From assembly GCF_000949255.1 (NCBI RefSeq), contig NZ_JXUW01000011.1:1-64000 (forward strand): DNA of 64,000 bases, given 5' to 3'. The notes beneath the pieces were generated by a model, which saw only the letters and a list, made by a program, of their open reading frames with translations, was not told where the DNA came from and ran no database searches. The DNA comes from Ferrimicrobium acidiphilum DSM 19497. GTDB lineage: Bacteria; Actinomycetota; Acidimicrobiia; Acidimicrobiales; Acidimicrobiaceae. A program made the position numbers and the translations under genes. How positions within the stretch are numbered: the first letter of the stretch is position 1; each line of letters begins with the position of its first letter. Positions 1,928 to 53,661 of the stretch are shown one piece after another.

Positions 1928-4090
1928 TTAGATGTTTGCGATTACGGGTCGCAAATCCACGGCATCCAGGATGACAAGGTGGACTCCATATTTCTGGGCG
2001 ACTTCCTCCGCTATCGTGATCGCACCTTCCTCCAGCGGTTCGGTGCAAGCCATTACGTGTGCATCGGCCAAGAGACGCTTGGACAGCTTAACATCGCGAT
2101 GAATTTGTTCTTCGTCGAAAGCTGCTGCACTTGTTTTTACTTCTCCTGCGATTACTTTTCCATCATGGACGCCAAAGAGATCAACCTCGCTCTCGATACC
2201 ATCGTCGAAGGAAACATTCACCCCTGGCAAAATGAACGTGTTCGACGACCGCTTGTGTAGCGCAGCTATCACCAAGAGATGCGGCAGAACCCCTTGGTCA
2301 CTTGCTAAGTCAATCAATGAGTTGAGACGGTAGTAGGTAGTGATCCCCGCTGATGTGTAAGCGTACCGTCCAGAACTCTCACACCCCGGGCATCTCGCAG
2401 AGGGAGTGGTGTCGCGAAAGGGAACAAAACTCGTGACGGAGCAGCGCTCACAGCTGATCCGACACCCACGCTCGGCCCAGCCGAGTGTGACGAGAGTCTC
2501 CGCGGCGACGACCCCGACCTCTGGCTGGTGGACGCCACATAGGTCGCTCGTACATTGACTCGTGCGCTCAAGACGACCAAATTCGCTAGCCAACCTCGAG
2601 AGGTCTAATTGGTTTCCCTTCGCAGCTTGCTCGTCCAAGGCGGCACCTACGCGCTCTTTCCTCAAGGTCGTTAAGGAGCGGATCGCCTCGAATACCCCAG
2701 GCTCCAACAGACGCTCGAGTTTCCACGACGGAGTAATGCTCTGACCCATGCGACCCTTATCGGACAGGCAATGCGATTCGGTCGCATCGTCGAGCAACGT
2801 TTCAACGACTTCGCGAAGTTGAGGAACGCAGATATCAATCTCATAGTAGGACAATGCCTGTTGGTACAGTTCGATCCCGCCATCCCGCCAGTGGCTCTCG
2901 GGCTGAATAAGTCGCGCAATAGAGGGGCGTTTGGGAAAAGGCGAAAGGATATCGGAATTGATCTTTACTTTAGTGGCTCCGGAACCAGCGAAGCGTACCG
3001 GAGAGTTGAAGGCAACTGATGTTTTATCTCGAAAGACCTGTATGGGAACCCTCGTTGTCATCCCGTAGCGACGGTGCCAACTCATATAAGGCACTGGATC
3101 TATGCCAACGCGGTAGGTGAACGGCGGTAGTCGAGGAGCGATGGCATCCACTGCACTAAATTCTTGCGACGGGTTCCTGCTGTCTTCCACTAAACCCCAC
3201 GATTCCGCAATTGTGCGAAGTCGATCTGGTGTGACCTCCTGGCTATATAAAACAGCATCAGCCGGGAACACACCTGATCGACCTCGAAGTAATTCCTGGA
3301 TTCGCTCAAAGAAGAGGATCCAGCTATCAACCTTTTCAGCGGGCAGTAGCAGCATGGGTACGCTCTCTCGACCGAAGGGCCGAAGTGCTCGAAAGTTCCA
3401 ATATGCTATGCAATCCGGGAATGGGTCCTTATCGCAGAGCCAGAAGACCGCTGGGCGTGTATAGGGGCCACCGTCACTCCAATGCTGGCCAAACTGTGAG
3501 GCCGTGCGATCAAGGGCAGTCTGCCTGGAGGCGAAGCCCGTTGATTGACCGGGACTGCTGGGTACGACCAAGCCTTGTGATCTAGCGATGGCTGATGCAA
3601 AGGTGCCTGCTGCCGCGATCGCCCAGAGGTCCCCTAGATCATCGGTGGATTCGGTGTAGAACCAGGAGCCAGTTATCGGCCCAAAACCCCCGGCGTATTC
3701 TGCTGATTGGCTCCATGATTGTTGATCTTCTTGGCTGATGACCATCGGGTGACAGGTATGCCGACCAGGACCCTCTTGATCGATGACATCAATCGAAACA
3801 AGAGGCAACCCTAAGCGTTTAGAAACGGCCTGGGCAGCCCGATCATCGCAATCAACATTTACGAGTTCATCCACATCGGCGAGTTCCGCAATGGTGCGCC
3901 ACTGGTCATCGAGCTCTAAATCTTGGTTGACGGGGATAATCGGCTCAGTGACGCCCCCCCAACGTGTACATGCTTCTTGAACCGCTCTTATGAAGCCCGA
4001 TACGCTTCCTTCACCAATAAGGTACGCGACTCGCGCTGGCGCAATTACCATGCGAAATTCTTCTTGGCCGAGGTACTCACGTGATTGCAT
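1928..4090 (-). CDS. unrecognised large protein with zinc ribbon and PD-(D/E)xK-like nuclease motif
   Basis: I do not recognise the family. The protein has about 720 residues from the ATG at 4090; in-frame ATGs at about 4135 and 4051 are alternatives because no start has a strong ribosome-binding site. The N-terminal part (VAYLIGEGSVSGFIRAV and WGGVTEPIIPVNQD) looks globular and alpha/beta. Near the C-terminus a zinc-ribbon pattern is visible: Cys547-x2-Cys550 and Cys567-x2-Cys570. After it, SEVDLFGVHDGKVIAGEVKT supplies Asp637 and Glu650-x-Lys652, the spacing expected of a PD-(D/E)xK restriction-type nuclease core. It lies alone between IS21 debris and small unknown genes, in the same island as a type I restriction operon, so a role in defence or DNA processing is plausible but inferred. 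No transmembrane segments or signal peptide are apparent. Confidence 0.75.
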   Translation of the reverse strand: MQSREYLGQEEFRMVIAPARVAYLIGEGSVSGFIRAVQEACTRWGGVTEPIIPVNQDLELDDQWRTIAELADVDELVNVDCDDRAAQAVSKRLGLPLVSIDVIDQEGPGRHTCHPMVISQEDQQSWSQSAEYAGGFGPITGSWFYTESTDDLGDLWAIAAAGTFASAIARSQGLVVPSSPGQSTGFASRQTALDRTASQFGQHWSDGGPYTRPAVFWLCDKDPFPDCIAYWNFRALRPFGRESVPMLLLPAEKVDSWILFFERIQELLRGRSGVFPADAVLYSQEVTPDRLRTIAESWGLVEDSRNPSQEFSAVDAIAPRLPPFTYRVGIDPVPYMSWHRRYGMTTRVPIQVFRDKTSVAFNSPVRFAGSGATKVKINSDILSPFPKRPSIARLIQPESHWRDGGIELYQQALSYYEIDICVPQLREVVETLLDDATESHCLSDKGRMGQSITPSWKLERLLEPGVFEAIRSLTTLRKERVGAALDEQAAKGNQLDLSRLASEFGRLERTSQCTSDLCGVHQPEVGVVAAETLVTLGWAERGCRISCERCSVTSFVPFRDTTPSARCPGCESSGRYAYTSAGITTYYRLNSLIDLASDQGVLPHLLVIAALHKRSSNTFILPGVNVSFDDGIESEVDLFGVHDGKVIAGEVKTSAAAFDEEQIHRDVKLSKRLLADAHVMACTEPLEEGAITIAEEVAQKYGVHLVILDAVDLRPVIANI

Positions 4091-4563
4091 AACTCTAGTT
4101 TCGCACAGAATGCTCCAAAGCAACAGCTTTGGCATTGCTCCGATATCTAGGAGCTTGTTTTCGAACAACTCGGGTCCCAAAGGCGTTGACTGAAATGGGC
4201 GTGAATATTCAATTCATGGCTACGCCCAAACGTTACTCTGCGTAGGGTTACCAGACAAGCCCCACCTCTCCAGAGGGTAACAATATCGGGTTGCCGGTGC
4301 GCACGCTGGTGTGTGTTGGATACTTGGCGCGCGTAGGATCGAAGCTCGGTGGGTGACTGCGAATCGCCGTCGCGGGGGACGTTGCTCTTCTTGAATGTAC
4401 GGCGCTAATCGAAGTGAATGCTAGCCGCAAACTCCTGACACGACTCCATCCGTTGCACACGAGAAAGTGCGAGCTGTATCATGGTGACATTGTTCTACTG
4501 GGAAGGAGATCGAGTTATGGGGGCAAGCAGACCAATAAGTTGATAGAGACACATGTCAAACGC
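4091..4563. other. intergenic region between divergent unknown genes
   Basis: No supported gene. A GGAGAT ribosome-binding-like site at about 4503 is followed by ATG at 4517, but that frame closes after eight codons. Confidence 0.35.
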
Positions 4564-5306: not shown

Positions 5307-5654
5307 ATGGCTTCCGCTCCCATCCGCCACGGTCTTATTCGGGTTCCATTTATCGGCCAACAACACGGTATATATTGGCTCCGACTTTATGCCATCGATA
5401 CCAGCAGCTTCGTTGTTATCGTCACTGAGGTCCCTGGGAATCCAGGCCCTTCCATCACGAATGGCATCTCTCTGATCTTTAAATTCATCTGCCGGGAATA
5501 TCAGCTCGACCCTGCTCATGTGATATTCTTCGAGGTCTGGCCTCTCGGAGTATTTCAGAATCAGAAGGCGCAGTACAGGAGAGTTGCTTTCTTTCCATCT
5601 TTAGCCTGGGAAGACGTGACCCTGAAGCAGATAGAAAACATGGGGCTCTATTGA
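5307..5654 (+). CDS. small hypothetical protein
   Basis: About 115 residues with a convincing amphipathic composition. The central part (VIVTEVPGNPGPSITNG, then CREYQLDPAHVIFFEVWP) reads like a conserved alpha/beta fold, with an NPGPSITN turn followed by a helix and a strand. It resembles small uncharacterised bacterial proteins I have seen without assigned function, but I cannot name a family. It stands between two unknown reading frames and an IS3 remnant. A minus-strand frame covering 5250-5519 is judged to be its shadow because its composition is poorer. Confidence 0.5.
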   Translation: MASAPIRHGLIRVPFIGQQHGIYWLRLYAIDTSSFVVIVTEVPGNPGPSITNGISLIFKFICREYQLDPAHVIFFEVWPLGVFQNQKAQYRRVAFFPSLAWEDVTLKQIENMGLY

Positions 5655-6086: not shown

Positions 6087-9032
6087 CTAGATATGGCTGA
6101 TTCGAAGTCGACGTGCTCGTTCTCGGAACGCGGCTTCACCACCTTCGAGGATCTCGCAGACATCAGTCCTAATAGCCGCATTTTCTAGCGAGCCAGCGTG
6201 GTAATTAAATTTTGGTGGGTTGCCTTCCTTATCTCTTACACAAGTGGCAACGATCACCTGGTCGACGTCAGTATTGACAACGAGGTTTGCATTGTGCGTG
6301 ACAATGATAACCTGTCGTCTCGCCCTCGCATTCCGAAACAGATACACCAGTTCTTTGAACACGGAGCGTGGGTCAAGGTTCTCTTCCGGCTGATCTATAA
6401 CCAATGGGCGATGGTCGTTGACGTCAAGCGCTAGGTACAGCAGCAGCAATACTATCCCCCGAGTTCCGGGACTCAGCTGGAAAAGCGGTTGGCCTTCGTA
6501 CTCGAAATTGTACGTGACAGAAATATGATCAGTGGAGTATAGCCATCGACCGACATCGAGCGTCCACTGTTGGTATTCAGGCGTTCCAGATTCTGCATTA
6601 GCTTGCTCGATAATAGCTTGATCATACTGTTTTCGGAACTCGGACATCGCGTGCACGACCTCGGCGGCTGTGCCGGTTTCCCAGCTAGACAACAGCAGTA
6701 TACGTGCCATTTGTGCAAGTGATCCACGGCCGCGAAACTTACCGATCTTTCGTAGATCGATCAACTCCTCGCCACGTGAAGCCCAGAGTTGGAGATCAAC
6801 CTTTCTCGCTACATTGAGACGGAGGCTTCCGACCGACCCTCCTGTGTCTGTGAGCTTGGCTGACAAGGGCTGGTATAGCTCTTCGAGGATCTTCTCCTCC
6901 GCGAGCACGAGTTCAAAGTATTGCTGATACACCTCGGAGCGCTCCCGAACGAGTTCTTTCAGCCGCTCGCTCCATCCCTCGAATAGGTCGATATCGCGCT
7001 GTGCTTTTTCGATTTCGAGCTGCCTCGCGCTAATGCGCGTATTAAGCATCTTAAGCTTCTGCGCATTCTGCCTGTCGATACCGATCTCCGTAGAGACTTT
7101 ATCAAATTGGTCTTTTAGGGTGGCCAAAGCGACATTACGCAGTTGGTCTGCCGTTGACGTGATAGTCGCAGGAGCGTCAGGATCTGCCGTCTGCAGGCGG
7201 TTGATCATCTCGGCATTGTTCTTCTGATGTCTTGCGATGACGTCCGTGGGAGAACCTTCAAATATCAGTTTGAATTCGGCCCAATCCACTTCCGACAGTG
7301 CCAGCGATCCATATTCCGATTGAAGTTGGTTTGTAAGGCGGGGGAGTATGTCTGCTTCGTAGCGTTGCACCTGCTCGGCGAGATGTACTAAGCGCTGGGT
7401 ACGTTTTGCCGCATTTTGCATCTTCCGTTGTCGCCTGTCTATTTCTTCTTGAAGTCGTTCGTAATAAGCGGCGCGTTCTTTCTCGCCTTGTTTGACTATC
7501 GCGTCTCTGTTGTTCTTGTCCGTCATCAGCCGAGAGTGCAGGACTTCAAGCGCCTTCTTCTTGCCTGGGAGCTCAGCGCGGCGCGTCCGTTCAGCAAGAA
7601 CATCCTCCGATATACGATCAAGTTGTTCTGTGAGATAGGTGCGTTGGCGCCGGGTATCGCCGACCCGCTCTTCTAGTAACTCGTTGAAGTTCGTTGCTTC
7701 CAAACGCGCCGACGGATCATGCGCCTCGAATACAACTTTCTGTATCTCCTCGATCAGCTCGTCGTCAATACCTTCGGCACTGCACAGGTGTTCGACGAAC
7801 TTCTGGCTGAGGTAGTGGACTTCAGGATCGTCGTCGGGGGTCTTCCCGACCTGAGATTGTGACTGATCGGAATTGCTCCATTCAACTTCGACACTGACAC
7901 CGCTCAGGAACTGTTTCGCCCGCACCAGGAATGAATCGTTGCCGTTGCTCGGTAGCTTACTGCCGCCCGCGTGAGCAATCAGATCGGCTAGTGCTGTCTT
8001 TCCGGAACCCCGAGCTCCGATCACTGCCACGAGGCCCGGGTTCAGTGGCATTCCGCTATCCAGCAACCATGGAGCACCAGAGGTTTTAACGGATGCGAGT
8101 GTTCGTTCCGGACTCTCGAGCTCTAGAGGCAGCGGCCCGATGTAGACACGGCTTCTTGGCTCAAGGCAGGCCTGCCGGAGTGACTCAAATACCGGATCGC
8201 CCTTGATCCAGGTGTAGCGACCAAGATCGGGTCTCCCAACGTCGGCTATGCAGTGCGCATCGGAACCGTGGAGACATGGTTTGAGACCACCGTACTCAGT
8301 CTCCAGATCGTGCTTTGTTGCCCCTAGTTCGCCACACCAAAACGCCGCCTGCCTCTCGTTACTTGAAAAGATAATGTGCGCAAATCCCTCAATCTCTTGG
8401 CGTATTGCTGCGAAACTTGTGTTATCGGTCTGCAACCCCGCCGTGCCATCGGTAGAGCTGCCAGCGACGGCGACAAGGGAGTTCGCTCGCATCCACTCGC
8501 TGTCCTCAAACTCAGAGCGCAGCTGCCGAAAATCAACTTTGAACTGGTTCACTCCTGCACGTAGCGCGGCCTCGTCGTCGGGCAGAGAGGGATCATGCGC
8601 CCGACCCAGGCGGGCCAGATCCGCAGGCGCACAGGTGTACTTGTCTTTCTTGTATTCGAAGGTAAGTCGCGCAAGGAAATGGTTGAGTCGCTCAAGATGT
8701 CTAGGGTCGTCAGGTGAGACAAGGAGATGTAGGTTGATTCCTTTGCTCTTCTTAGTTTCGATGCTCAGACGTAGCTCTATATTTGGAAAGAGGAGGGCGA
8801 CACCCGCGAGGCGTCCTTTGTCATGCTTCGCAGCGGCCACCGCCTCGTAGCACCTTGTCGTTAAGTAATCAGTTACTCCGACGGCCTCTAGTGACGGAGA
8901 TGCTGCTTCGATGGCATCTAGGTAGTCGTCAATGGACCCGTTACCGCCGAACTGGTCATTTAGGAGTGTTCCCGGAGCGTGGATGTGAGGGTCCCAACGC
9001 CTCCACAGAGAGCCCTGTTGATTACCTGTCAT
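6087..9032 (-). CDS. TrlF-type protein: PHP-like domain fused to SMC/ABC-type ATPase
   Basis: 981 residues from the ATG at 9032, which sits one base after the stop of the preceding peptidase gene and has GGGGAG about nine bases upstream; two earlier in-frame ATGs exist. The N-terminal region has PHP-type metal-binding motifs (Asp14-Pro-His16-Ile-His18 and HGSDAH at 255-260). A Walker A (GARGSGKT, 339-346) opens an ATPase split by a long coiled coil, and closes with a signature-like LSPGTRG, Walker B VIDQPEENLD (Asp880) and IIVTHNAN. This is the layout of TrlF-family proteins, which are often found beside type I restriction loci and are thought to act in phage defence. It is the last gene of the hsd operon, so co-expression with the restriction enzyme is likely. 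Nuclease activity of the PHP domain is inference. Confidence 0.88.
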   Translation of the reverse strand: MTGNQQGSLWRRWDPHIHAPGTLLNDQFGGNGSIDDYLDAIEAASPSLEAVGVTDYLTTRCYEAVAAAKHDKGRLAGVALLFPNIELRLSIETKKSKGINLHLLVSPDDPRHLERLNHFLARLTFEYKKDKYTCAPADLARLGRAHDPSLPDDEAALRAGVNQFKVDFRQLRSEFEDSEWMRANSLVAVAGSSTDGTAGLQTDNTSFAAIRQEIEGFAHIIFSSNERQAAFWCGELGATKHDLETEYGGLKPCLHGSDAHCIADVGRPDLGRYTWIKGDPVFESLRQACLEPRSRVYIGPLPLELESPERTLASVKTSGAPWLLDSGMPLNPGLVAVIGARGSGKTALADLIAHAGGSKLPSNGNDSFLVRAKQFLSGVSVEVEWSNSDQSQSQVGKTPDDDPEVHYLSQKFVEHLCSAEGIDDELIEEIQKVVFEAHDPSARLEATNFNELLEERVGDTRRQRTYLTEQLDRISEDVLAERTRRAELPGKKKALEVLHSRLMTDKNNRDAIVKQGEKERAAYYERLQEEIDRRQRKMQNAAKRTQRLVHLAEQVQRYEADILPRLTNQLQSEYGSLALSEVDWAEFKLIFEGSPTDVIARHQKNNAEMINRLQTADPDAPATITSTADQLRNVALATLKDQFDKVSTEIGIDRQNAQKLKMLNTRISARQLEIEKAQRDIDLFEGWSERLKELVRERSEVYQQYFELVLAEEKILEELYQPLSAKLTDTGGSVGSLRLNVARKVDLQLWASRGEELIDLRKIGKFRGRGSLAQMARILLLSSWETGTAAEVVHAMSEFRKQYDQAIIEQANAESGTPEYQQWTLDVGRWLYSTDHISVTYNFEYEGQPLFQLSPGTRGIVLLLLYLALDVNDHRPLVIDQPEENLDPRSVFKELVYLFRNARARRQVIIVTHNANLVVNTDVDQVIVATCVRDKEGNPPKFNYHAGSLENAAIRTDVCEILEGGEAAFRERARRLRISHI

Positions 9033-9033
9033 C

Positions 9034-9762
9034 TCACATTTCTCCCCATCGTTCATGACCAAGCGGTGCTCGGTCCAATCGAGCTTGGCGTGCTCTCCAG
9101 TCAGGCATGTTCTTGTCCATCAGTTTGATGAAGCGCTCCCCATGGCCCCGTTCGAGGAGGTGAGCCATCTCATGGACCGCGACATATTCGAGACCTTCGG
9201 GATGCTTTTTGGCTAGTTCGAGGTTAAACCAGATGCGACCCGCCTCTCGATTACACGAACCCCATTTCGTCTTCATTCTGCGAATCCTCCATTGCGATAC
9301 CGTGACACCAAGTATTGGTTCCCACTCCGCGAGCACAGGAGGAATGGTGAGACGCAGTTGCTCACGATACCAATGATCTAGTAGGTCCCGTCGCCGATCA
9401 ACAGTTGTGCCTACCGGGATGTAGAGCAGGAGTCGTTGGTCTGTCAGCTCTATATGAGCCCGACCGGGGCACTCGATGACCTTCAACCGGTAACGCCTTC
9501 CCCACACGTAGTGAGACTCGCCGGTAACCATTTCTCTCATACTCTGGCGCTCGGCAGCCTGCAGTCTCTGGCGCTGCCTCTTGATCCAGGAGAGACGTGT
9601 GATAACCGCTAGGCGCACTTGATCGTCATCGAGCGTTTCAGGCGCCGCAACCCGCACGCGTCCATTGGGCGGGTAGACGCCAATATGTAAGTTCTTGACC
9701 CCTTTGTAGACGACATCGACCTCGATGTCGCTCACCCTGAGACGCGAGTTAGCGGTACTCAC
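9034..9762 (-). CDS. YgjP-like (DUF45/M48-type) zinc metallopeptidase
   Basis: About 242 residues with a GTG start at 9760-9762 that overlaps the end of hsdR by 14 bases. The diagnostic segment is KTKWGSC (about 164-170), then a beta-rich part and VAVHEMAHLLERGHGERF, giving the zinc motif His197-Glu198-x2-His201 with a third histidine at 208. This matches the YgjP/DUF45 family, a soluble minigluzincin-like peptidase often encoded in type I restriction operons. Its substrate is unknown; it could clip a restriction subunit or a partner protein. The position, coupled by overlap upstream and one base from TrlF downstream, says it works with both. Confidence 0.9.
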   Translation of the reverse strand: MSTANSRLRVSDIEVDVVYKGVKNLHIGVYPPNGRVRVAAPETLDDDQVRLAVITRLSWIKRQRQRLQAAERQSMREMVTGESHYVWGRRYRLKVIECPGRAHIELTDQRLLLYIPVGTTVDRRRDLLDHWYREQLRLTIPPVLAEWEPILGVTVSQWRIRRMKTKWGSCNREAGRIWFNLELAKKHPEGLEYVAVHEMAHLLERGHGERFIKLMDKNMPDWRARQARLDRAPLGHERWGEM

Positions 9763-12700
9763 TTCGTGCCTTCACGAGTTCAAACAGGTCATCAAGGCGA
9801 GCATCACCGCCAGGGAGGGCTTCCCTAATCGCCAGTTTTACCTTTCTCTCTTTGAGTTGATTGCCAACCCATGAGTCAGGCTTTGTCTCAAGTACAACTT
9901 TGTCGACCCGAGAGGCAAGGTCGAGGTCTGGGGCGAAGAAGTCAACAAGAGCTCGTCGAGCGCCGTTGTTGGCCCATTCTGGATAGTCAGTCTCGGATTC
10001 TCTCTTGCCGAGCTTTGCTGCCTGTTCTAGCAACTTAGCAAGGAACTCCTTGTATTCAAGTGCTCCCTTTCGACGCTCCTCTAGTAATGCATCAAGAAGT
10101 GCTGACATTCGGTCGTAGTACTTCGGATTTGTCGGTCGCTCATCGGTGATGAGACTGCGCATATTGTTGGTGATCGTGGCGGCGACTGCTTCGGGGTCTT
10201 GTTTGATTCCCTCAGGTAGTCCTTCGATGGCATTCGGTCCGAGTCTGACGATCAGTTCTATCAGTCCAGCGTTATCGAAGTTGGAGAGAACCTCGGAGGG
10301 TTTTGCCAAGATGTAGGTATCAAGGAGGTGTCGCATGCCTGCCTCGTACTGTTTGAAGTCAACGTCCTCCCCTGCGCCGAGCTTTACTTCGTCGCGAACA
10401 TTCACGTAGTGCGTGACCTCTACCTTGATGGCTTGCGCCTGAGCATCGCTATAGCCAGCTACATCCATCTCGTTAGCCAGGTTGCCATAGCTTCGTACCA
10501 ATGCCGTGACGGCCTTATAGAGCTCGACTCGCTTGGGCTCGTTTGTCTTTAACTGCTCGACATTACCTGGCTCGCGTGCACAGAAGTACCTCTGGTACTG
10601 AAGCGTACCTTTGGGAGGTTCAACTGGTTCACAGAGCGCTCTGATCTTTTCAAGTGCCTCATCAAGATCCATACGGGCCTTCTCGATACGGTCCGACATC
10701 AGGCCCTCGATGTCTTGCTCGTCATAGCCGTCCAAGGGACCGATGGTGTAGTCTGTGATCGCTGACTCTAACGAGTTGAACAGATCTCGATAGTCAACGA
10801 TGTAGCCATAATCCTTGTCATCTCCATCGAGCCGGTTCACCCGGCAGATGGCTTGGAAGAGACCATGGTTTTGCATCTTCTTGTCTATATAGAGATAAGT
10901 GGCACTTGGGGCATCAAAACCGGTGAGCAACTTATCAACGACGATCAGTAGGCGCATCTGGCCAGGCTCGGCGAGGAATCTCTCCTTGACTTGGCGCTCA
11001 AAGAGATCGACCTTCCCGGCTGCTTGATCAGCTGTCTCCTTGAAGTGATCAGCCAACATCTGGCGATAGATCTCATATTGGCGCAAGCGTTCGGTGGCTC
11101 CCTCTCCTGAGTCTTCCTTGGAGATGCCACCAGCCTGGGGCTCGTAGCTGGTAATGATGGCACACTTGCCCTTAAAGCCAGCCTGACAGAACAGTTCGTA
11201 GAACTTACAGGCTTGGTAGATGCTGGCACTAACCAGCATGGCATTGCCTCGACCATCCATGAGTCGTGGCTTGGTTTCCATGTCGAGCAGGATGTCATTG
11301 ACGATCTGTCGGGCGCGCGGTTCAGCACTGACCACCTTCTGCATGTTGCCCCAACGCTTCTTTAGCTCCGCCTTTGAGAGATCGGTCATGCCTTTGGTCT
11401 TGGCCTCGAACCACTGGTCGACCTTGGCCGGCGCCATCAGCTCTTGATCGATGGTCCGAGCCTCGTAGCGCAGATCCAGTACCACGCCATCGGCGACTGC
11501 CTCGTCGAACTTATAGGTATGGATGAATGAGCCGAAGGTCTCGATGCTAGTTTGTTTTTCTACTTTTAGTAGTGGTGTTCCAGTAAAGCCGATGAACATG
11601 GCACCGGGGAGGATCTGTTTCATGGCATCATGGAGCTTGCCAGACTGAGTTCGATGAGCCTCGTCAACGAAGACGAAGAGGTTGCCCTTGGCCCTGAAGT
11701 CCGCTGGTAGTTTTGCCTTTAGCTCCCGGATAAAATCACCCTCGGCCTCATCGCGCTCCGAATCGTCCTCTGAGGTGCCGAACTTATGGATCAACGAACT
11801 GATCAGCCAGGGCAGACTCTCGTTTAGCGTGCCAAGGAGATCAACACCGCTCTTGGTACGGTAGATGTCCTCGCTGACGCCCTTAAAGACCCCCTCGATC
11901 TGTTGATCGAGTTCGGTGCGGTCGGTGACGAGTAGAACTCGAGCATCGCGTTGGTTCTCTCGCAGCCACTTAGCCAGCCAGACCATAGTGAGTGACTTGC
12001 CAGAGCCCTGGGTGTGCCAGATGATTCCGCCTTCGCGCTTTACAACCCGAGCCTGAGCAGCTTTGACGCCAAAGTACTGGTTGTGACGGCATGTCTTCTT
12101 CACTCCAGCATCAAAGACCATGAAGTCATGGATGATCTCTAAGAGCCGCTCCTTGGCGCAGAGCTGACCCAAAGATCGCTCAAGTGGCTCCTCGATCTCT
12201 GAGAGTTCTTTCCAGGCTAACCAGTACTTCTCGGGTGTGTCGATGACAGAATAACGTAGCCCTTCGACGTCATTGCCAGCCATGACCAGTTGCACAGTGG
12301 TGAAGAATGATCGGATGAACTCAGCGTTCTGGTTGCCAATGGTCTGGCGAATACCTTCTGACACCGCCACTTTGGAGCGTTTGAGCTCAATGGTTACCAG
12401 TGCCAGACCGTTTACGTAGAGGACGAGATCCGGGCGTTTCGTGTGGACGCCAGCTACTGTAACCTCCTCGGCAACGGCAAAGTGGTTTGCCTCTGGGTGC
12501 TTCCAATCGATCAGCCAGACCGTCTCGGTCTGCTCTCCTATGCCGGGCCGAACATGAACTCCATAGCGCAAGAGCTCATAGACATCCTTGTTTGCCTCAT
12601 AGAGATCACGACCGCCGCCAAGCGAGGCGTCGCTCTTGAGTCTGTCGACTGCTTTGTTGATTAGTAAGTCAGAATATCCACGAGCCTTGAGGTTCTCGGT

Positions 12701-12835
12701 GAGCAGACCTACCTCGACGTTAGAGTTACCCACCCGGTACTCCCAGTTACCCAGGTAGTCATAGCAGACTTGCTCGGCAAAGAAGCGAACGATCCGATTC
12801 TGAGTGTTGCGTTCGGTTTGGCCGACGTCGCTCAT
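9749..12835 (-). CDS. hsdR: type I restriction enzyme R subunit
   Basis: About 1028 residues from the ATG at 12833-12835, which overlaps the stop of the preceding gene as ATGA; a start 15 codons earlier is less likely. The N-terminal nuclease core shows RPDLVLYVNGLALVTIELKR (Asp136, Glu150-x-Lys152). The motor follows: Walker A HTQGSGKS (274-281), LVTDRTELDQQI, the DEAH box FVFVDEAHRTQSG and GFTGTPL, then a helicase C-terminal half with CRVNRLDG. Length and motif order are those of an intact HsdR. It translocates DNA from the recognition site and cleaves at a distance when bound to HsdM-HsdS. Confidence 0.96.
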   Translation of the reverse strand: MSDVGQTERNTQNRIVRFFAEQVCYDYLGNWEYRVGNSNVEVGLLTENLKARGYSDLLINKAVDRLKSDASLGGGRDLYEANKDVYELLRYGVHVRPGIGEQTETVWLIDWKHPEANHFAVAEEVTVAGVHTKRPDLVLYVNGLALVTIELKRSKVAVSEGIRQTIGNQNAEFIRSFFTTVQLVMAGNDVEGLRYSVIDTPEKYWLAWKELSEIEEPLERSLGQLCAKERLLEIIHDFMVFDAGVKKTCRHNQYFGVKAAQARVVKREGGIIWHTQGSGKSLTMVWLAKWLRENQRDARVLLVTDRTELDQQIEGVFKGVSEDIYRTKSGVDLLGTLNESLPWLISSLIHKFGTSEDDSERDEAEGDFIRELKAKLPADFRAKGNLFVFVDEAHRTQSGKLHDAMKQILPGAMFIGFTGTPLLKVEKQTSIETFGSFIHTYKFDEAVADGVVLDLRYEARTIDQELMAPAKVDQWFEAKTKGMTDLSKAELKKRWGNMQKVVSAEPRARQIVNDILLDMETKPRLMDGRGNAMLVSASIYQACKFYELFCQAGFKGKCAIITSYEPQAGGISKEDSGEGATERLRQYEIYRQMLADHFKETADQAAGKVDLFERQVKERFLAEPGQMRLLIVVDKLLTGFDAPSATYLYIDKKMQNHGLFQAICRVNRLDGDDKDYGYIVDYRDLFNSLESAITDYTIGPLDGYDEQDIEGLMSDRIEKARMDLDEALEKIRALCEPVEPPKGTLQYQRYFCAREPGNVEQLKTNEPKRVELYKAVTALVRSYGNLANEMDVAGYSDAQAQAIKVEVTHYVNVRDEVKLGAGEDVDFKQYEAGMRHLLDTYILAKPSEVLSNFDNAGLIELIVRLGPNAIEGLPEGIKQDPEAVAATITNNMRSLITDERPTNPKYYDRMSALLDALLEERRKGALEYKEFLAKLLEQAAKLGKRESETDYPEWANNGARRALVDFFAPDLDLASRVDKVVLETKPDSWVGNQLKERKVKLAIREALPGGDARLDDLFELVKARSEYR

Positions 12836-13776
12836 GGTCCAGACTCCGCTAGCGCCTGATCGATACCTTGGCTTTGCCACGCTCCATAAGTAATTCCGCT
12901 GTCTTGCACCTTCCAGTTAGTTCTACCGTTCGCGCTACGGCCCAAGATCACCGCCGCTGCGGCCGATGGCGAGGTGAAGACCTGGTTGCGGGTGAATACC
13001 CGAGACTTGCTATCATTTGAGAGCACGAGTGTGCCATCCTCTTCGAGCTTCTCACGGAGACGCAGGTAGCCGTCATCAACACCGATCCACTTAAGCCTTG
13101 CTAGTGATCCACTTAATACAGTGAACTCCCCATCGACTTCCTGGGCGGTCGCAATGATGCGTTCTTTCGTCGGACCTAGTTGAAAAATAGGAGACAGTGC
13201 CGACGACGTGGCTTGCATGGCACTCGGTGCTTGCTGAGTTTCTCCGGCTGAAGGTAGCGAGCGAAATAGGTTCACGCCAAGGACAGGTAGCACGATTTTT
13301 GCTTGAGCGATGAAGTACTCCATGTCGGAGATATCGGCCTCAGGAAGTGGTAGCGGAGGTGGTGCGGTTCCGTTCACCAGTACCGCCCGGTTGGCTTGTT
13401 GAGCCAGGGTAATCAGGCGGGACTCTAAATAGCGAGCATGCGCCTTGGTGAGGTTGGTGTCTTTGCTGGTTAGGACGATCGCCCTATTCCAGAAGTCTTT
13501 ACCTCCCTGGTCTTCGGGTCGAGCATGCTGATAGAGTCGCTTGCTGACATCGTCCCCCTCACCGATATAGGCGATCGTGTCACCAAGGCTCTTTGCGTCG
13601 TCACCGAGCAGGATATAGATGCCAGTCCGACTGGCCTCCGGGCGCTTTAGGAGCGAAGCCAGGTCAGAGCGTGGAGCAGCGACTACGTGGCCCGTCCAGT
13701 TCATGATCTCTGCTGTCAAAAGGCCACCAGGGGTACCGTCTGCCAAGAAGAGGCGGATGGACTTCCCGTCGCTCAC
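12832..13776 (-). CDS. GIY-YIG nuclease-like protein with C-terminal DUF4357
   Basis: 314 residues, start ATG overlapping the hsdS stop (ATGA) and stop overlapping the hsdR start. A GIY-YIG fold is seen at 51-84: TGIYILLGDD (Gly52-Ile-Tyr) and AYIGEGDDVSKRLYQH (Tyr70-Ile-Gly, Arg80), with a candidate catalytic Glu in RYLESRLI about 35 residues further on. The C-terminal third (from GEFTVLSGSLARLKW to NWKVQDSGITYGAW) matches the DUF4357 pattern. Such proteins are repeatedly found inside type I restriction operons; their role is not established. Possible jobs are extra cleavage of modified or incoming DNA, or control of the R subunit. The four-base overlaps on both sides imply translational coupling. 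Confidence 0.88.
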   Translation of the reverse strand: MSDGKSIRLFLADGTPGGLLTAEIMNWTGHVVAAPRSDLASLLKRPEASRTGIYILLGDDAKSLGDTIAYIGEGDDVSKRLYQHARPEDQGGKDFWNRAIVLTSKDTNLTKAHARYLESRLITLAQQANRAVLVNGTAPPPLPLPEADISDMEYFIAQAKIVLPVLGVNLFRSLPSAGETQQAPSAMQATSSALSPIFQLGPTKERIIATAQEVDGEFTVLSGSLARLKWIGVDDGYLRLREKLEEDGTLVLSNDSKSRVFTRNQVFTSPSAAAAVILGRSANGRTNWKVQDSGITYGAWQSQGIDQALAESGP

Positions 13777-15038
13777 GTCATTGTCTCCGCAACAGGTAGC
13801 CGAGTTCGACCGGTGAGGAGTTGCTGCATCATGCCTTGCTTGATGGCACGGGCTTTATCAAGCCGATGACCCAGAACGGCGATCTCCTGTTCGCAGTCTG
13901 TCAACACTCCGGCAATCGCTTGTTGTTCCTTTGTGGAGGGCAGGCTAACGTCTATGCTAGAAATGTACGAACGAGTCGTAGCAAGAACTTTCGTACCGGC
14001 GGCCAGACGTAACAAGCCCTGTCGAAACGATGGAATGTGTTGGAGGTACGCCTTGAATCCATCCGCTAGCACCGACTTGTCGAAGCGCGCTGCGATGGTG
14101 TGTAGCCCGGCAATCACGCCCTCCGTGGGTACGCCCACTAATTCGACAGATTTTCCGACTCCTGCGTAATCCTCAGAAGCATCGGCGAATATAAGATCAC
14201 CTACTCTCAGGTGTCCAGTTTTACCAGCCAGATGGGATGATGCCCTGGGCATTTCTTCCTGTGATGCATTTAGAAACGGGCTTGTCCTAGTATGAATGTC
14301 GCCGTAGTGGAGGTACTTGAGACGCGAAGCAACATCAAGCTGATCTCGTGACAGCGGAACGGTCCTCACGTATGTGACGTGGTTGCCCAATGTCGTCTTA
14401 GACCATGAGCCATTGAACCCCGGCAGCCGCGTCCGCCCTGTCAGGAGCTCCTGCATCATTCCCTGCTTGATGGCTTCCTTCTTCTTGATCAGGCGCTCCA
14501 GGGTGGAGATGAAGTCGTCGGCGTCGGTCAAGACCTCGGCAATCGCTCGCTGCTCTGGAACCGGCGGCAGTGGAATTCGAAGATCCTTGATCTTAGCCAA
14601 AGTGAGTCGGGTTATGGCGTTACCCGCCATGGCATCCTCGACTTGTTTTCGACCAGCTGCCGAAAGCAGATACTGGAGAATGTAACTCTCGATGGATCGT
14701 CGCGGGTTGGCACGGATGAATGCGACGCTCGAAAGTAGGCTGATCTCTTCCCGAAACAAGTTGATGGTGGCGTTGCCTGTATTTGCCCCATCCTTGGTCA
14801 GCAGCAGATCGCCATAACGCACGTCACATCTGTGGTAGATCTTCTCGTGCTCTTCGCGCGAGATAGTTTCCACCGATTCGAGACGCAGCCGCCCTGGGCC
14901 GACGTTCTTGGAGGTGATGTACTTGAACTCGGTACCGCCGAGCTTGGGCGAGAAGTGCGTTCCGTCCTGGATCTTGATACTGATGTGCTCAAGTAACCCA
15001 ACGGTCCAGTCTGAGGGTAACGTTTTTATCGCACTCAT
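13773..15038 (-). CDS. hsdS: type I restriction enzyme specificity subunit
   Basis: 421 residues from the ATG at 15036-15038, whose A is shared with the hsdM stop TGA; a GTG one codon earlier is possible. Two target-recognition domains alternate with two nearly identical conserved repeats, AIKQGMMQELLTGRTRLP (about 190-210) and AIKQGMMQQLLTGRTRLP at the C-terminus. This two-fold layout is the signature of an intact HsdS, each half reading one part of a bipartite DNA target. The C-terminal repeat is complete, so the gene does not look like a half-length or swapped copy. Specificity cannot be predicted by eye. Confidence 0.95.
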   Translation of the reverse strand: MSAIKTLPSDWTVGLLEHISIKIQDGTHFSPKLGGTEFKYITSKNVGPGRLRLESVETISREEHEKIYHRCDVRYGDLLLTKDGANTGNATINLFREEISLLSSVAFIRANPRRSIESYILQYLLSAAGRKQVEDAMAGNAITRLTLAKIKDLRIPLPPVPEQRAIAEVLTDADDFISTLERLIKKKEAIKQGMMQELLTGRTRLPGFNGSWSKTTLGNHVTYVRTVPLSRDQLDVASRLKYLHYGDIHTRTSPFLNASQEEMPRASSHLAGKTGHLRVGDLIFADASEDYAGVGKSVELVGVPTEGVIAGLHTIAARFDKSVLADGFKAYLQHIPSFRQGLLRLAAGTKVLATTRSYISSIDVSLPSTKEQQAIAGVLTDCEQEIAVLGHRLDKARAIKQGMMQQLLTGRTRLPVAETMT

Positions 15039-17470
15039 CACTCCAACCCCATATCAACCAGATGCGCTGCGACCTTGATCTCAAGGCTTCTCAGTTGTTC
15101 GTCAAGCTCATCAACCGTCTCGGCGTAGCGCTCCCCGAGCTCCTGGATGCGGACGACAAGAGCTAGCGTGAGTGCGTTGACCTCGCTTCCGACACCGGCT
15201 GCAATACTGGCATGCCACTTATCCTCGAGCACCAGTTGTTGGATATCTGCCTCGTTTAGCTCTCCGCACTTCCTCAACGTTGCGAGATCCAGAGCAGATT
15301 GGGCATCCTTGACAGCCTTCTTGGCCCAGGACTCTTCGGCATACAGCTCAAGTAGCCGTTCCAGACCCTTGACTTCGTCAGGGTCAGATCTCTCCCGCTT
15401 AGCTTCCTTGAGCCTAGATATTGCAAGGGACTTGATCACCTTGCCATCATCCATGGCTTCTGATAGCTGACCGTCCTCGACTCCATGTTCTTCTATGTAC
15501 TCTTCGATTGCTCTACTGGTTTCCTCGGCTGTAGCCTTGAGCGCATCCGCTCGGGTCTGTTCATCACCGAAGTAGTGAGCGACAATCAGCTCCGGTGGCA
15601 CCAGGTCCATCTTGTACTTGGTAGCGGACTTACCAGAGCCGATCACAAGGTCAGGAACCTCCGCTAGCTTCCGGTCCTTGTCCTCTATGGCCTTGCGAGG
15701 CTTGGCAGCGTTAACCCAGCCATCATTCATTAGTAGGAAGATGTCGTCGTGCATCGTCGAATGCCAGTAGGTCATGAGTTGTTCATAGACATCGTAGGCA
15801 TCAAGTAGCGGCGCAGCCTTGAACCGTTCTAGTAGGTCGTCTCCAAGCGTGGCGATCAGTGCGTTCGGTTTGGTGTCAGAGCTTAGGTTCTTTAGCGCTA
15901 GACGGTGGTCCATAAACCAGTTATCGACTTTGTGCCTTACCGCTTCCGCAAAGCTCTTGAACTCCTCGGAGTCCAGGATGGTTTGCTGGACTCTTGTGAT
16001 GTCGATCGCCAGATCCACATAGCCAGGACGGTTCGGTTTGAAGAGCGTTGAACGCAAGCTCGGGAAGGCGTCCCAGTAGGGAGCGAGTGCGTCTATGTCT
16101 CGCTCCGGGATGCCGCCTTCTAGATGCGCGTGGAGATCCTGGATGTCCTCGGGCGCAGAGGAATCGATATAGCGAGGGATGTTGAGGTTGTAGTCGTTCT
16201 TTGGATCGTCGATCTCGGCAAATGGCACCATGCTGGAGTAACGAGCGATCTCTGTCTGTTTGTTGAATACGTCGACAATCTTGTGGATGTCCTGGCTTCG
16301 TAGACGGTTCTTCGGGCCGTCCTTCATGAAGCCCTTCGATGCGTCGATCATAAAGACCCCACTGCGAGCTTGAGCGTTCTCTTTGTCGAGTATCACAATG
16401 CAAGCTGGAATGCCGGTGCCATAGAACAGGTTGGAAGGCAGTCCGATGATCCCCTTGATATAGCCACGTCTGACGAGCTCTTTTCGAATGGTTGCCTCGG
16501 CGTTTCCGCGAAAGAGGACACCGTGGGGTAGAATGACAGCCGCCTTGCCGGTGCTCTTCAAGGACTTCAAAATGTGTAGTAAGAAGGCGTAGTCACCATT
16601 CTTCTCAGGAGGTCTGCCGAACTCGAAGCGACCATAGTCGTTCTCCAGGCCACTACTCCATGACTTCACTGAAAATGGAGGATTAGCAACAGCGAAGTCA
16701 AAAGTGCGAAGTTGACTGCCGTCGAGAAACTCTGGGCTGGTGATGGTATCGCCTTTTTCGATCTCAGCATCCGCGTTGCCGTGTAGGATCATGTTCATCT
16801 TCGACAGTGCCCAGGTGGCGTTGTCCTTCTCCTGCCCATAGATAGTGATGCCACGAGGAGCTTCGTCGGCGACTTTGAGCAAGAGCGACCCGGAACCACA
16901 GGTAGGGTCATAGACCGTGTGGTCCTGCTTGGTATCTGGACCAATACCTACCACCTTGGCAAGAATCCGAGAGACTTCGGCTGGGGTGTAGAACTGTCCC
17001 TTGGACTTGCCGGACTCGGTTGCAAAGTGGCGCATCAGGTATTCGTAGGCATCACCGAGTAGATCGTCACCTTCGGCACGACTGCCTCGAAAGTCAAGGT
17101 CAGCGAAGATGGCTACGAGCTTAGAGAGGCGGTCCTGCATTTCCTTGCCTCTACCGAGCTTCTCTTCGTCGTTGAAGTCAGCCTGGTCGATGACTCTTTG
17201 CAAGTCGTTAGCCTCGGCAAGCCTGGCGATAATCTTGTTGAGCTTGTCGCCGATTTCCTTGTCACCCTTGAGTGCGACCATGTCGTCGAAGGAACCGCCA
17301 ACTGGGACTTCGATCAAGCTATTCCGGTCAGTCTTTGCCTTATCGGATACGTACTTCACGAACAGCAAGGTCAGGATGTAGTCCTTGTATTGAGAGGCAT
17401 CCATTCCACCGCGCAGCTCATCGCAACTCTTCCAGAGGGAGCCGTAGAGATCGGACTTTCGTAAAGTCAC
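15038..17470 (-). CDS. hsdM: type I restriction enzyme modification subunit with long C-terminal extension
   Basis: 810 residues, starting with GTG at 17468-17470 after a GAGGAG ribosome-binding site. The HsdM N-terminal helical domain is followed by GQFYTPAEVSRIL, AdoMet motif I VYDPTCGSGSLLLKV (Asp188-Ser194) and catalytic motif IV VANPPF (Asn263-Phe266), so it should methylate adenine at N6. Typical HsdM proteins have about 500 residues; here about 300 more follow, rich in charged helices (for example around SRLKEAKRERSDPDEVKGLE). The extension may help assembly or regulation. First gene of the six-gene operon; its upstream region should carry the operon promoter. Confidence 0.95.
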   Translation of the reverse strand: MTLRKSDLYGSLWKSCDELRGGMDASQYKDYILTLLFVKYVSDKAKTDRNSLIEVPVGGSFDDMVALKGDKEIGDKLNKIIARLAEANDLQRVIDQADFNDEEKLGRGKEMQDRLSKLVAIFADLDFRGSRAEGDDLLGDAYEYLMRHFATESGKSKGQFYTPAEVSRILAKVVGIGPDTKQDHTVYDPTCGSGSLLLKVADEAPRGITIYGQEKDNATWALSKMNMILHGNADAEIEKGDTITSPEFLDGSQLRTFDFAVANPPFSVKSWSSGLENDYGRFEFGRPPEKNGDYAFLLHILKSLKSTGKAAVILPHGVLFRGNAEATIRKELVRRGYIKGIIGLPSNLFYGTGIPACIVILDKENAQARSGVFMIDASKGFMKDGPKNRLRSQDIHKIVDVFNKQTEIARYSSMVPFAEIDDPKNDYNLNIPRYIDSSAPEDIQDLHAHLEGGIPERDIDALAPYWDAFPSLRSTLFKPNRPGYVDLAIDITRVQQTILDSEEFKSFAEAVRHKVDNWFMDHRLALKNLSSDTKPNALIATLGDDLLERFKAAPLLDAYDVYEQLMTYWHSTMHDDIFLLMNDGWVNAAKPRKAIEDKDRKLAEVPDLVIGSGKSATKYKMDLVPPELIVAHYFGDEQTRADALKATAEETSRAIEEYIEEHGVEDGQLSEAMDDGKVIKSLAISRLKEAKRERSDPDEVKGLERLLELYAEESWAKKAVKDAQSALDLATLRKCGELNEADIQQLVLEDKWHASIAAGVGSEVNALTLALVVRIQELGERYAETVDELDEQLRSLEIKVAAHLVDMGLE

Positions 17471-18030: not shown

Positions 18031-18107
18031 TGGTGGAGGTGAAGGGACTCGAACCCTCGGACCTCTTGACTGCCAGTCAAGCGCTCTACCAGCTGAGCTA
18101 CACCCCC
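18031..18107 (-). tRNA. tRNA-Ala (anticodon GGC)
   Basis: The minus strand folds as a full cloverleaf: acceptor 5' GGGGGTG pairs with 3' CACCTCC including the G3-U70 wobble that identifies alanine tRNA, D-stem GCTC/GAGC, anticodon stem CTTGA/TCAAG with loop CTGGCAG (anticodon GGC), and T-arm with TTCGAGT. The CCA end is encoded (18031-18033 on the plus strand read TGG). The accessory region lies directly downstream of its 3' end, the usual attachment position for tRNA-integrating elements. Confidence 0.97.
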
Positions 18108-49899: not shown

Positions 49900-50390
49900 C
49901 TCCGGTCGGCCAGCACCCACCTGGAACTCGAGCAACCGGTCTAACAGCTGGTCGTTGAGGCGCTCATAGCGGAGCTGACCGTTGAAGCTCTCGATCCAGG
50001 TGTTCTGTTACGGTGAGCCCGGGTCGATGAACACGGTACTGGTACCGGTGAACCGGTACCAGTCGACCAGGACATTGGCGATGAACTCGGACTCGCATCG
50101 GAACAGACGTATACCGGGACGCCGCGGCTGGAGGCCAGGTGGTCCAAGCATCTGACCACTCCGTCGGCGTCGATGGAACACTCGACTTCGCAGGCGAGTG
50201 CTTCGCCGGTTAACGCGTCGACGACGTCGAGGATCTTGAACATCCCACCAGCCGCGGTCTGGTCGAACTGGAGATCCATCGCCTAGATCACGTTGGGTCG
50301 GATCGCGTGCACTGCATCCACTGGCCCATCGATGCCCCGTAGTGGCGGGGACCTTTTGCAGACCACGGCCGCCGTAGGCACCACCGATGG
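49900..50390 (-). pseudogene. IS3-family OrfB transposase remnant
   Basis: The minus strand encodes AMDLQFDQTAAGGMFKIL, ALACEVECSIDADGVV, then after a frameshift EFIANVLVDWYRFTGTS and VFIDPGSP, stop (TAA where Trp is expected), QNTWIESFNGQLRYERLND. This is the integrase core of IS3 OrfB with two frame changes and a nonsense codon. It is G+C-rich like the neighbouring GGDEF-EAL gene, suggesting that both arrived together. Confidence 0.78.
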
Positions 50391-50399
50391 TCGAGCCAA

Positions 50400-52694: not shown

Positions 52695-52814
52695 TAGCTT
52701 CCTCCCGCCCGCCGACGCTCAGCCCGTAACGGCCTTCATACACGTGGCGGCGTCTCCCACTACTTCGGTCGTGGCGGCGGCCAGCTTGAGGTCATTGCCG
52801 ACTTTTCGAAGGCT

Positions 52815-53320
52815 CTACTGCTTTTTCGGGGGTGGGTTGAGAGGCGTCTGATGGCGCACCAGCTCACTAACGGTAGGGAATCTCCGCTTTGACTGGCCGG
52901 GTCGGGACGGCTTGACTCCGATGGCAGGGTTGGAAGCGAGCAAGCCCTCGATCACCACGTCGGTGAGTAGCTTCTTCGCACCCCTAGGTATCGGGTCACG
53001 GTAGCCGGAACAGGCTCACCACCGATGCGGCTACATATGACCGCCGGAGGTCCGCTAGGCGGACAGCTCCGATTCGTGGCTCGATCTGATACCCCCAAAT
53101 GCTCCTCTCGCGCGCGGTGGTCGAGTCGGTCGTCTGCCTCGCGGTTGACCACCGCTCCCACCGCTCGGCCACGGTGATCTTGCAGCCGCTTGGGTCTCGA
53201 GTGCCGCCGTGACGATGCTCTCGCAGGCGTTCCTGGCGGTAAGCCTCGGCCTCGGTTGTCGTAGTGGGCCGTATGTCGGTTGCCAGATGAGTTGTAGCAC
53301 CGTGCCTCCCACCTTGCGGT
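52815..53320 (-). pseudogene. tyrosine site-specific integrase, N-terminal remnant
   Basis: Minus-strand pieces in different frames read ARWEARCYNSSGNRHTAHYD, then TEAEAYRQERLREHRHGG, CKITVAERWERWSTARQ, IEPRIGAVRLADLRR, and after another shift KKLLTDVVIEGLLASNPAIG and RRFPTVSELVRHQ. This is the arm- and core-binding part of an actinophage-type integrase; the catalytic R-H-R-Y domain is missing. It lies against the 3' end of tRNA-Val, the classic position for such an enzyme, and marks a decayed tRNA-integrated element. Confidence 0.8.
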
Positions 53321-53398
53321 CTTCCAGTGATGGGGGTGAAAGGCCTGTAACCGTTGTCGCCACCTCGGTCTAGATAGCGCTTGACAGTGACTTTGTAG

Positions 53399-53472
53399 TG
53401 GGCGCTAGAGGACTCGAACCTCCGACCTCAGCCGTGTGAAGGCTGCGCTCTAACCAACTGAGCTAAGCGCCC
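53399..53472 (-). tRNA. tRNA-Val (anticodon CAC)
   Basis: The minus strand folds as a cloverleaf: acceptor GGGCGCT/AGCGCCC with discriminator A, D-stem GCTC/GAGC, anticodon stem CAGCC/GGCTG with loop TTCACAC (anticodon CAC), variable AGGTC, T-stem GGAGG/CCTCT with TTCGAGT. CCA is not encoded. The integrase remnant and G+C-rich block begin at its 3' end. Confidence 0.97.
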
Positions 53473-53661
53473 GCGACACGTAGATACTAGCCAGCTAATT
53501 TGTGGAAACTGTTCACGTGGTGCTCAGATTCGGTCGAGGGAGTCCTGGATCAAATACTTGCACACCAGCTCTGGGGTTCATCGAATGTTAAAGGCCCGTG
53601 TTTTTCTGCCGAAATGCCTAAAAGCGGTCAGCATGGCGCATGGAATGACGAGGTGTAGGCA

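Follow-up and report, generated by a model that had tools for sequence, protein, structure and literature searches.

A four-gene type I restriction scaffold with two exchangeable gene positions in Ferrimicrobium acidiphilum

Results

The window, as we call the whole stretch of DNA analysed here, comprises positions 1 to 64,000 of contig NZ_JXUW01000011.1 of Ferrimicrobium acidiphilum DSM 19497, whose genome of 3.09 Mb is assembled in 68 contigs. Between positions 6087 and 17470 it carries six open reading frames (ORFs), all on the minus strand, in the order hsdM, hsdS, GIY-YIG/DUF4357, hsdR, ygjP and trlF (Table 1). These genes are one combination on a scaffold of four genes (hsdM, hsdS and hsdR of a type I restriction-modification (R-M) system, plus ygjP) with swappable slots, not a fixed six-part machine. 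Slot 1 lies between hsdS and hsdR, slot 2 after ygjP; in the window they are filled by the GIY-YIG/DUF4357 gene and by trlF, respectively. The original prediction had listed the same ORFs with the same order, strand, span and gene identities, all of which hold, the GIY-YIG label being the only one without Pfam support.

The core assignments rest on profile matches and motifs. HsdM scores 268.7 bits against TIGR00497 (cut-off 242.75) and has the motifs of an N6-adenine methyltransferase, while HsdS shows target recognition domains, with a PF01420 match of 54 bits in one stretch and a near full-length match to the PADLOC Specificity_I model. HsdR combines HSDR_N, SWI2_SNF2 and T1R_D3-like domains with the nuclease and superfamily 2 motor motifs RPD, IELKR, TQGSGKS and DEAH; its closest relatives are found in an Actinomycetes metagenome-assembled genome (84%) and in Ferrithrix thermotolerans (83%). 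YgjP is a YgjP-like peptidase by PF01863 (207.7 bits) and its zinc site, and its score against the SprT domain PF10263 (26.4 bits) is barely above the cut-off of 25.6.

Nearly every junction within the operon is an overlap. That of hsdM and hsdS reads TGATG (one shared base) or GTGA (four bases), depending on the hsdS start; hsdS and the GIY-YIG gene overlap by four bases; the GIY-YIG gene and hsdR share ATGA (four bases), given an hsdR start at ORF residue 16, which is the start conserved in relatives; and hsdR and ygjP overlap by 14 bases. The overlaps that had been proposed for all junctions are thus borne out, save for ygjP/trlF, which is either a one-base gap (with ATG 9032) or an overlap, according to the trlF start chosen.

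Table 1. Genes of the operon and the adjacent tRNA gene, with positions in the window
Feature	Position	Strand	Evidence and remarks
hsdM, type I methyltransferase (core gene 1)	15038..17470	-	N6_Mtase/HsdM_N; PADLOC PDLC03027, 1228 bits; motifs DPTCGSG, NPPF
hsdS, specificity subunit (core gene 2)	13773..15041	-	Methylase_S; start GTG 15041 or ATG 15038
GIY-YIG/DUF4357 (slot 1 cargo)	12832..13776	-	DUF4357; PADLOC candidate PDC-S14
hsdR, type I endonuclease/translocase (core gene 3)	9749..12880	-	HSDR_N + SWI2_SNF2; likely start 12835 (ORF residue 16)
ygjP, YgjP/SprT-like zinc metallopeptidase (core gene 4)	9034..9762	-	YgjP-like domain; HEMAH
trlF, PHP nuclease-like + SMC/Rad50-like ATPase (slot 2 cargo)	6087..9062	-	NCBIfam NF045780; start probably ATG 9032 or further upstream
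tRNA-Ala(GGC), just upstream of the operon	18031..18107	-	Possible island edge

A genome collection was scanned with an alignment of seven HsdR proteins, and 551 relatives were confirmed. Our main sample consists of the 80 of these loci that match the window best, each taken with at most 10 kb per flank, and is dominated by close relatives and actinobacteria. A YgjP search had supplied the plasmid loci behind six of the seven seed proteins, so that the scan was blind to slot cargo but not wholly blind to YgjP. Across the 80 HsdR-anchored loci the constant part is hsdM-hsdS-hsdR-ygjP: hsdM is present in 68/68 and hsdS in 66/68 loci with more than 6 kb upstream, and ygjP directly follows hsdR in 79/80 (71 called and 8 found by tblastn; the exception is L085), with HExxH in all 79 YgjP proteins. 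The hsdR/ygjP overlap amounts to 14 bases in 39 of the 71 called pairs and to 17 bases in nine. For control, 198 genomes of the phylum contained 47 hsdR genes above the TIGR00348 cut-off; in 13 cases the contig also has a YgjP-profile match no more than about 1.2 kb downstream of hsdR. In five of the 13, one being the window itself, HsdR shares 50% identity or more with that of the window; among the remaining 42 control genes, taken without regard to HsdR identity, eight have YgjP. By these neighbourhoods, YgjP is near-obligate in this hsdR subfamily and seems occasional elsewhere.

The two slots vary in occupancy. Fewer than 250 bases separate the last hsdS match from hsdR in 31/73 loci and at least 600 bases do so in 41/73, so that slot 1 is occupied in just over half of them. 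An ORF lies within 60 bases downstream of ygjP in 34/84 loci (79 from the scan and five from plasmids), an undercount by the simple gene caller used, and 13/80 loci have less than 3 kb after ygjP. This caller missed genes of high G+C content (eight YgjP and two GIY-YIG), which were recovered by tblastn or profile, and label counts based on it overstate empty slots; L066 and L076, for example, also hold GIY-YIG in slot 1.

The cargo is diverse. Profile searches in all frames of the 80 loci (1.61 Mb; E <= 1e-8) placed TIGR02391-like genes in slot 1 of 12 loci, GIY-YIG/DUF4357 in seven, DUF262/GmrSD-like genes in seven, Schlafen-type (SLFN_AlbA_2) genes in six, TrlF in five and a Gabija ATPase in one; slot 2 holds TrlF in six loci, Gabija ATPases in four and CBASS-type cyclases in four. 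The slot 2 TrlF count keeps a match cut by the contig end (L077). A 40-bit TrlF match in L063 belongs to a Gabija ATPase and is not counted; for L103 and L104, whose contigs start before hsdS, the slot 1 position is inferred, the L104 TrlF being a piece; and in L167 a GIY-YIG match is interrupted by stops, so that no such gene was called. Naming by Pfam and PADLOC, which covered about 30 slot genes, added IetS, NsnA-like, RhuM-Fic, zeta-toxin-like and HATPase genes, Tmn/YobI-ATPase (YobI-ATPase in slot 2), an ApeA N-terminal domain, a HamB-like helicase and a SMODS cyclase with a SLATT effector, with the IetS and Fic genes among the slot 1 cargo. Complete modules occur as well, namely Gabija pairs, a cyclase with a two-transmembrane (2TM) effector, and GmrSD-like pairs. 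Some slot genes (L047:13784-14728 and L079:14574-16442) gave no Pfam or PADLOC match. The TIGR02391-like name rests on Pfam PF09509 (114.9 bits), the NCBIfam score of 34.2 being below its cut-off of 39.45; the TIGR02391-like slot 1 gene of Ferrithrix (L047:9220-10001) is split over two frames and looks broken.

Cargo families are concentrated in the slots. TrlF and GIY-YIG gave zero matches outside the slots in the same search, and there were weak distal matches of DUF262 (one, 37 bits) and GajA (three, 35-100 bits). The slots make up 26% of the bases measured, and the chance of finding 11/11 TrlF loci within them is about 3e-7; counted by genes, TrlF accounts for 10/174 slot genes versus 0/819 other genes. 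GIY-YIG and TIGR02391-like genes occur in slot 1 only among the 80 loci. The expectation that the accessory families adjoin hsd genes more often than by chance is therefore upheld: YgjP does so in 79/80 loci, GIY-YIG in seven (slot 1 only) and TrlF in 11 (slots only), the latter two not being found elsewhere in the flanks. Approached from TrlF, the link is weaker, 1/14 other TrlF genes lying clearly in an hsd run.

An in-frame hsdR start that gives a four-base overlap with the slot 1 cargo is available at 18/28 junctions, across four cargo families (GIY-YIG 3/6, TIGR02391-like 11/12, DUF262 3/6, GajB 1/1; Schlafen 0/3), and coupling is therefore often preserved through exchange. The recurrence of these overlaps and of the 14-base hsdR/ygjP overlap in relatives, beyond chance, supports the original view of the operon as a single translationally coupled unit.

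Exchange itself is seen in closely related loci. Two plasmids of Rhodococcus sp. p52 are 95.3% identical over 3.8 kb of hsdR-ygjP, from the hsdR start to six bases before the ygjP end, and carry in slot 1 GIY-YIG on one and a TIGR02391 protein on the other, with different genes also next downstream. L046 and L047, the closest HsdR relatives of the window, behave alike: similarity resumes at most 12 bases from the hsdR start and is lost again near the ygjP end, and both hold slot 2 genes other than TrlF. In these two close pairs the similar stretch thus runs from hsdR to the end of ygjP, and the cargo differs on either side of it. Similarity likewise sets in again no more than 12 bases from the hsdR start in L105/L111, L109/L044, L144/L044 and L060/L067, and in L105/L113 it does so 141 bases before it. 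Gammaproteobacterial pairs remain similar past ygjP, and L060/L067 have a slot 2 TrlF in common. Among 5,426 E. coli genomes, 31 have an hsdR-ygjP close to that of L044; the one of E. coli C10 (L144) is 90.9% identical to it, yet the cargo differs, being a DUF262-ATPase-unknown trio in C10 and a DUF262 pair at the same place in L044 and L146. On an HsdR tree of 87 rows, labelled with the simple caller, GIY-YIG requires seven label changes for eight rows, TIGR02391-like ten for 12, and slot 2 TrlF six for six. Judging from these alignments, the replacement of cargo takes place at gene borders or close to them and usually keeps the short stop/start overlaps; because they are kept, cargo is probably co-translated with the R-M genes.

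The slot 1 protein of the window matches PADLOC PDC-S14 over its full length (417.7 bits, residues 1-307), and Pfam reports DUF4357 and no GIY-YIG domain in it. Residues G52, Y54, Y70, G72, R80 and E118, which we take to have the catalytic meaning known from GIY-YIG proteins, are invariant among relatives, and these relatives are annotated as 'GIY-YIG nuclease family'. The label is used because of the invariant residues, this annotation and the PDC-S14 match; an AlphaFold model from a shallow alignment (six sequences) gave no significant fold match. At E <= 1e-15, a search of 396 genomes found the gene in 12 others, seven times in an hsd locus and five times outside (two of these at contig ends); one copy (G311) is broken by stops, and that of G220 probably lies on the contig of L046. 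Weaker matches in G051, G388 and G027 are in hsd loci too, two of these three having been picked knowing that hsdR was near. Plasmids show it twice in other type I loci (L038 and L039) and once alone (L037, from Gordonia). By its neighbourhoods, the GIY-YIG/DUF4357 gene is a general type I companion, and several type I families have it in their hsd loci. A stand-alone relative in a genome of the same family (L160, G080:C1:624072-625010) is 70% identical to the window's and has no recognised hsd gene within five genes.

The slot 2 protein of the window belongs to the TrlF family (NF045780, 627.6 bits; cut-off 350) and has the motifs DPHIH, GSDAH, Walker A, DQPEENLD and VTHN. Its identification as Ppl was rejected, the score against the Ppl model NF042955 being 108.6 bits versus a cut-off of 1000. 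Elsewhere in the 396 genomes, 14 TrlF genes exceed the cut-off, one of them clearly in an hsdM-hsdS-hsdR-TrlF run (L158). In L148 a weak hsdR-like gene lies two genes from TrlF; in L138, L139, L154 and L157 the neighbour of TrlF is a large protein showing no more than a methyltransferase or helicase motif; and several contigs are short, with cut flanks. None of five plasmid TrlF neighbourhoods is in an hsd operon; in L030 a type I locus lies at a distance of a few genes. We also considered TrlF as an R-M-dependent partner, against which stand these counts (1/14 and 0/5). TrlF thus appears from its neighbourhoods to be mostly stand-alone. The TrlF tree joins the window's TrlF with stand-alone plasmid TrlFs (100/100), not with other slot TrlFs; the four slot 1 TrlFs in it form one clade, and the others are long, uncertain branches, for which the program issued a warning. 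At least two changes between slot and stand-alone are needed on this tree, by which the slot TrlFs are not one lineage. A TrlF gene immediately followed by a Schlafen/AlbA_2 gene occurs alone in L150, L151 and L152, outside R-M loci, and in slot 1 of L101, L103, L105 and L109; the two are likely to form a two-gene module.

A structure model of the window's YgjP (pLDDT 88.7, pTM 0.68) retrieved minigluzincins as the best Foldseek matches (E 3e-5). Structure 6mdx, which we take to be SPRTN, was matched with probability 1.00 at an E-value of 0.018, and Wss1 was also matched with an E-value weaker than that of the minigluzincins. As modelled, the catalytic domain resembles minigluzincins and the DNA-dependent proteases SPRTN and Wss1. 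YgjP is also found without hsd genes (L043 and L126). The latter locus is in the same genome as the window and encodes a second YgjP-like protein (G000:C8:22514-23212; L126:9503-10237) that is 56% identical and whose gene has no recognised hsd neighbour.

Around the operon, the 3' end of tRNA-Ala(GGC) has no second copy within the window and two one-mismatch matches elsewhere in the genome, and a search for repeats of at least 12 bases upstream of the operon yielded nothing useful. About 1.9 kb downstream of trlF and on the same strand, an ORF of 750 amino acids (aa; 1928-4180, minus strand) is without a match in Pfam, PADLOC, NCBIfam or PHROG; inspected by eye, it shows a CxxC stretch resembling a zinc ribbon and, at the C-terminus, a nuclease-like D...EVK motif. 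An ORF of 115 aa (5307-5654, plus strand) has a weak PADLOC match to SduA of Shedu (18.6 bits). Further away, G+C rises to 0.68/0.63 within 50001-54000, near tRNA-Val, versus about 0.55 around it; this region includes genes for a GAF-GGDEF-EAL protein (50400-52694) and an EAL protein (53662-54801). A second N6-adenine methyltransferase-like protein (N6_Mtase, Eco57I) is encoded at 56685-58472 and a Peptidase A4 family protein at 60711-62201, both on the plus strand.

Discussion

That type I operons embed defence genes is already known case by case, and the GIY-YIG protein is already a PADLOC candidate family. The closest counterpart is the RRDM island of E. coli E2348/69, which protects against phages and comprises RptR, HsdM, HsdS, DarTG2, HsdR and an M48 metallopeptidase (PMC12255303). 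It has the same order as the window (hsdM, hsdS, embedded cargo, hsdR, metallopeptidase); however, its cargo is DarTG2 whereas that of the window is GIY-YIG, and a second slot or a role of the peptidase is not discussed in the accessible part of that article. Its authors regard the site between hsdS and hsdR as a potential hotspot of recombination and report there, in Aliidiomarina quisquiliarum, an RNA-binding protein with an AAA-like ATPase (PMC12255303), which are probably the Schlafen-TrlF pair of L109. E. coli C10 has upstream of hsdM a gene for a 79 aa RptR-like protein (L144:1836-2075) with E58, K61, L69, A72 and L74 as given for RptR (PMC12255303), and relatives of it precede hsdM in 3/80 loci, all proteobacterial (L109, L121 and L122). 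Because RptR relatives lie upstream of hsdM in these four loci, RRDM very probably belongs to this scaffold. The window gave no tblastn match to the RptR-like protein of L144, and upstream of its operon a single TAGCTA site, at 17747, was found in place of repeated ones (nine in the whole window versus 7.1 expected).

Other known systems are similar in part. TgvAB, within the type I cluster on VPI-2 of Vibrio cholerae, and RloF of Campylobacter are GmrSD-like genes embedded in type I operons (PMC11411939), and GmrSD-like genes also occupy slot 1 here; a difference is that neither 'metallopeptidase' nor 'metalloprotease' occurs in the main text of that article. The prrC gene of the EcoprrI locus is likewise an effector gene embedded in a type I operon (PMC12707154), but its product, an anticodon nuclease, is an RNase under the control of the R-M enzyme, whereas GIY-YIG/DUF4357 and TrlF are of other families. 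The window's TrlF is related to Ppl, a PHP 3'-5' exonuclease on single-stranded DNA that is triggered by nucleotide depletion and 3'-OH ends (PMC12904381), but is far below the Ppl cut-off. For PDC-S14, which the slot 1 protein matches over its full length, no tested function was found. The accessible literature on embedded systems and metallopeptidases yields RRDM, TgvAB, CoCoNuTs and general reviews; a second slot or this breadth of cargo was not found described there, preprints and most subscription papers being outside the search.

It had been proposed that the whole set may act as one multi-layer defence system whose peptidase and TrlF would respond to a failure of restriction. A dedicated six-gene machine that evolved together would fit the tight overlaps in the window, but we disfavour it and hold it to be very improbable. 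The pairing of a slot 1 GIY-YIG with a slot 2 TrlF was found in 0/80 HsdR-anchored loci and in neither of the two opened Rhodococcus plasmid loci with GIY-YIG inside this operon type. This absence alone is weak evidence, as about 0.5 such loci are expected by chance from seven GIY-YIG and six slot 2 TrlF loci. The positive evidence, on which we rejected the six-gene set as a conserved system, is the exchange around a fixed core. The closest HsdR relatives have other slot 2 genes, and the window's TrlF groups with stand-alone TrlFs. A TIGR02391 protein and TrlF occur together in three loci (L060, L070 and L082), which, like the 0/80, fits independent slot filling.

We favour, at a probability of roughly 0.55, a four-gene type I R-M scaffold (hsdM, hsdS, hsdR and ygjP) with two cassette positions, whose cargo consists of co-translated, mostly self-sufficient backup defences. 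The architecture and the exchange come from comparison of loci; how the parts would work together we infer as follows. HsdMS would methylate host DNA, and HsdR would translocate on and cut unmethylated phage DNA. YgjP may target HsdR bound to DNA and clear or trim it where it has stalled, much as ClpXP degrades EcoKI HsdR during translocation (PMC12707154). The cargo would add a second, largely self-sufficient defence layer. The GIY-YIG nuclease of the window would work beside the type I complex, while TrlF, by analogy with Ppl, might degrade DNA from exposed 3' ends, such as those made by HsdR, once a phage lowers nucleotide pools. Self-sufficient modules are favoured for at least part of the cargo because TgvAB protects without hsd genes and without HsdR restriction activity, the full cluster performing better (PMC11411939).

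It is conceivable, if rather unlikely, that the type I complex instead guards its cargo, keeping the slot proteins inactive and freeing them when a phage inhibits restriction, with GIY-YIG and perhaps TrlF as punishing effectors. There is precedent in prrC, which is embedded in a type IC locus and whose product is activated when Stp of phage T4 inhibits EcoPrrI (PMC12707154). The confinement of GIY-YIG and TIGR02391-like cargo to slot 1, and the occurrence of GIY-YIG within the hsd loci that belong to several type I families (7/12 other genomes), would agree with such a guard. However, many cargos also exist alone: TrlF has no clear hsd neighbour in 13/14 cases, Gabija pairs and cyclases are known systems, TgvAB functions without hsd genes (PMC11411939), and stand-alone GIY-YIG genes include that of the same-family genome and that of the Gordonia plasmid. 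At the other extreme, the locus could simply be a recombination-prone defence island in which hitch-hiking cargo shares transcription and has no functional link to the R-M genes or YgjP. While the diversity of cargo and its frequent replacement speak for this, the four-base hsdR overlap shared by four unrelated cargo families, the restriction of TrlF and GIY-YIG to the slots in flanks searched equally, and the near invariance of YgjP make it improbable.

Several observations weigh against the scaffold with mostly self-sufficient cargo. The slot 1 restriction of GIY-YIG and TIGR02391-like genes, taken with GIY-YIG in other type I families, suggests a physical or regulatory tie for slot 1. Ten of the 28 slot 1 junctions, all those with Schlafen cargo included, are without the four-base overlap to hsdR. 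TgvAB alone is 10- to 100-fold weaker against several phages than the full cluster (PMC11411939), from which, by analogy, cargo may not be fully independent. Minigluzincins fit YgjP better than SPRTN does, implying no DNA role, and the substrate proposed for YgjP is a guess. Finally, identity between the window's TrlF and the other aligned slot TrlFs is only 18-24%, and a Ppl-like activity for it is proposed by analogy.

The scaffold would be of interest beyond this operon. A subfamily of hsdR in actinobacteria, cyanobacteria, proteobacteria and others has two fixed insertion positions and a near-obligate peptidase. Its cargo is drawn from many known defence families plus unnamed genes, so that reading the slots is a simple handle for new defence genes, and the role of the M48/YgjP peptidase in type I loci becomes a testable question. 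As a long shot, this R-M subfamily might have in YgjP its own DNA-activated protease, which polices HsdR on DNA as a sensor of restriction alleviation or restriction failure, with the slots as a plug-in port for almost any effector. If that were true, one conserved sensing engine would drive many different death or clearance modules.

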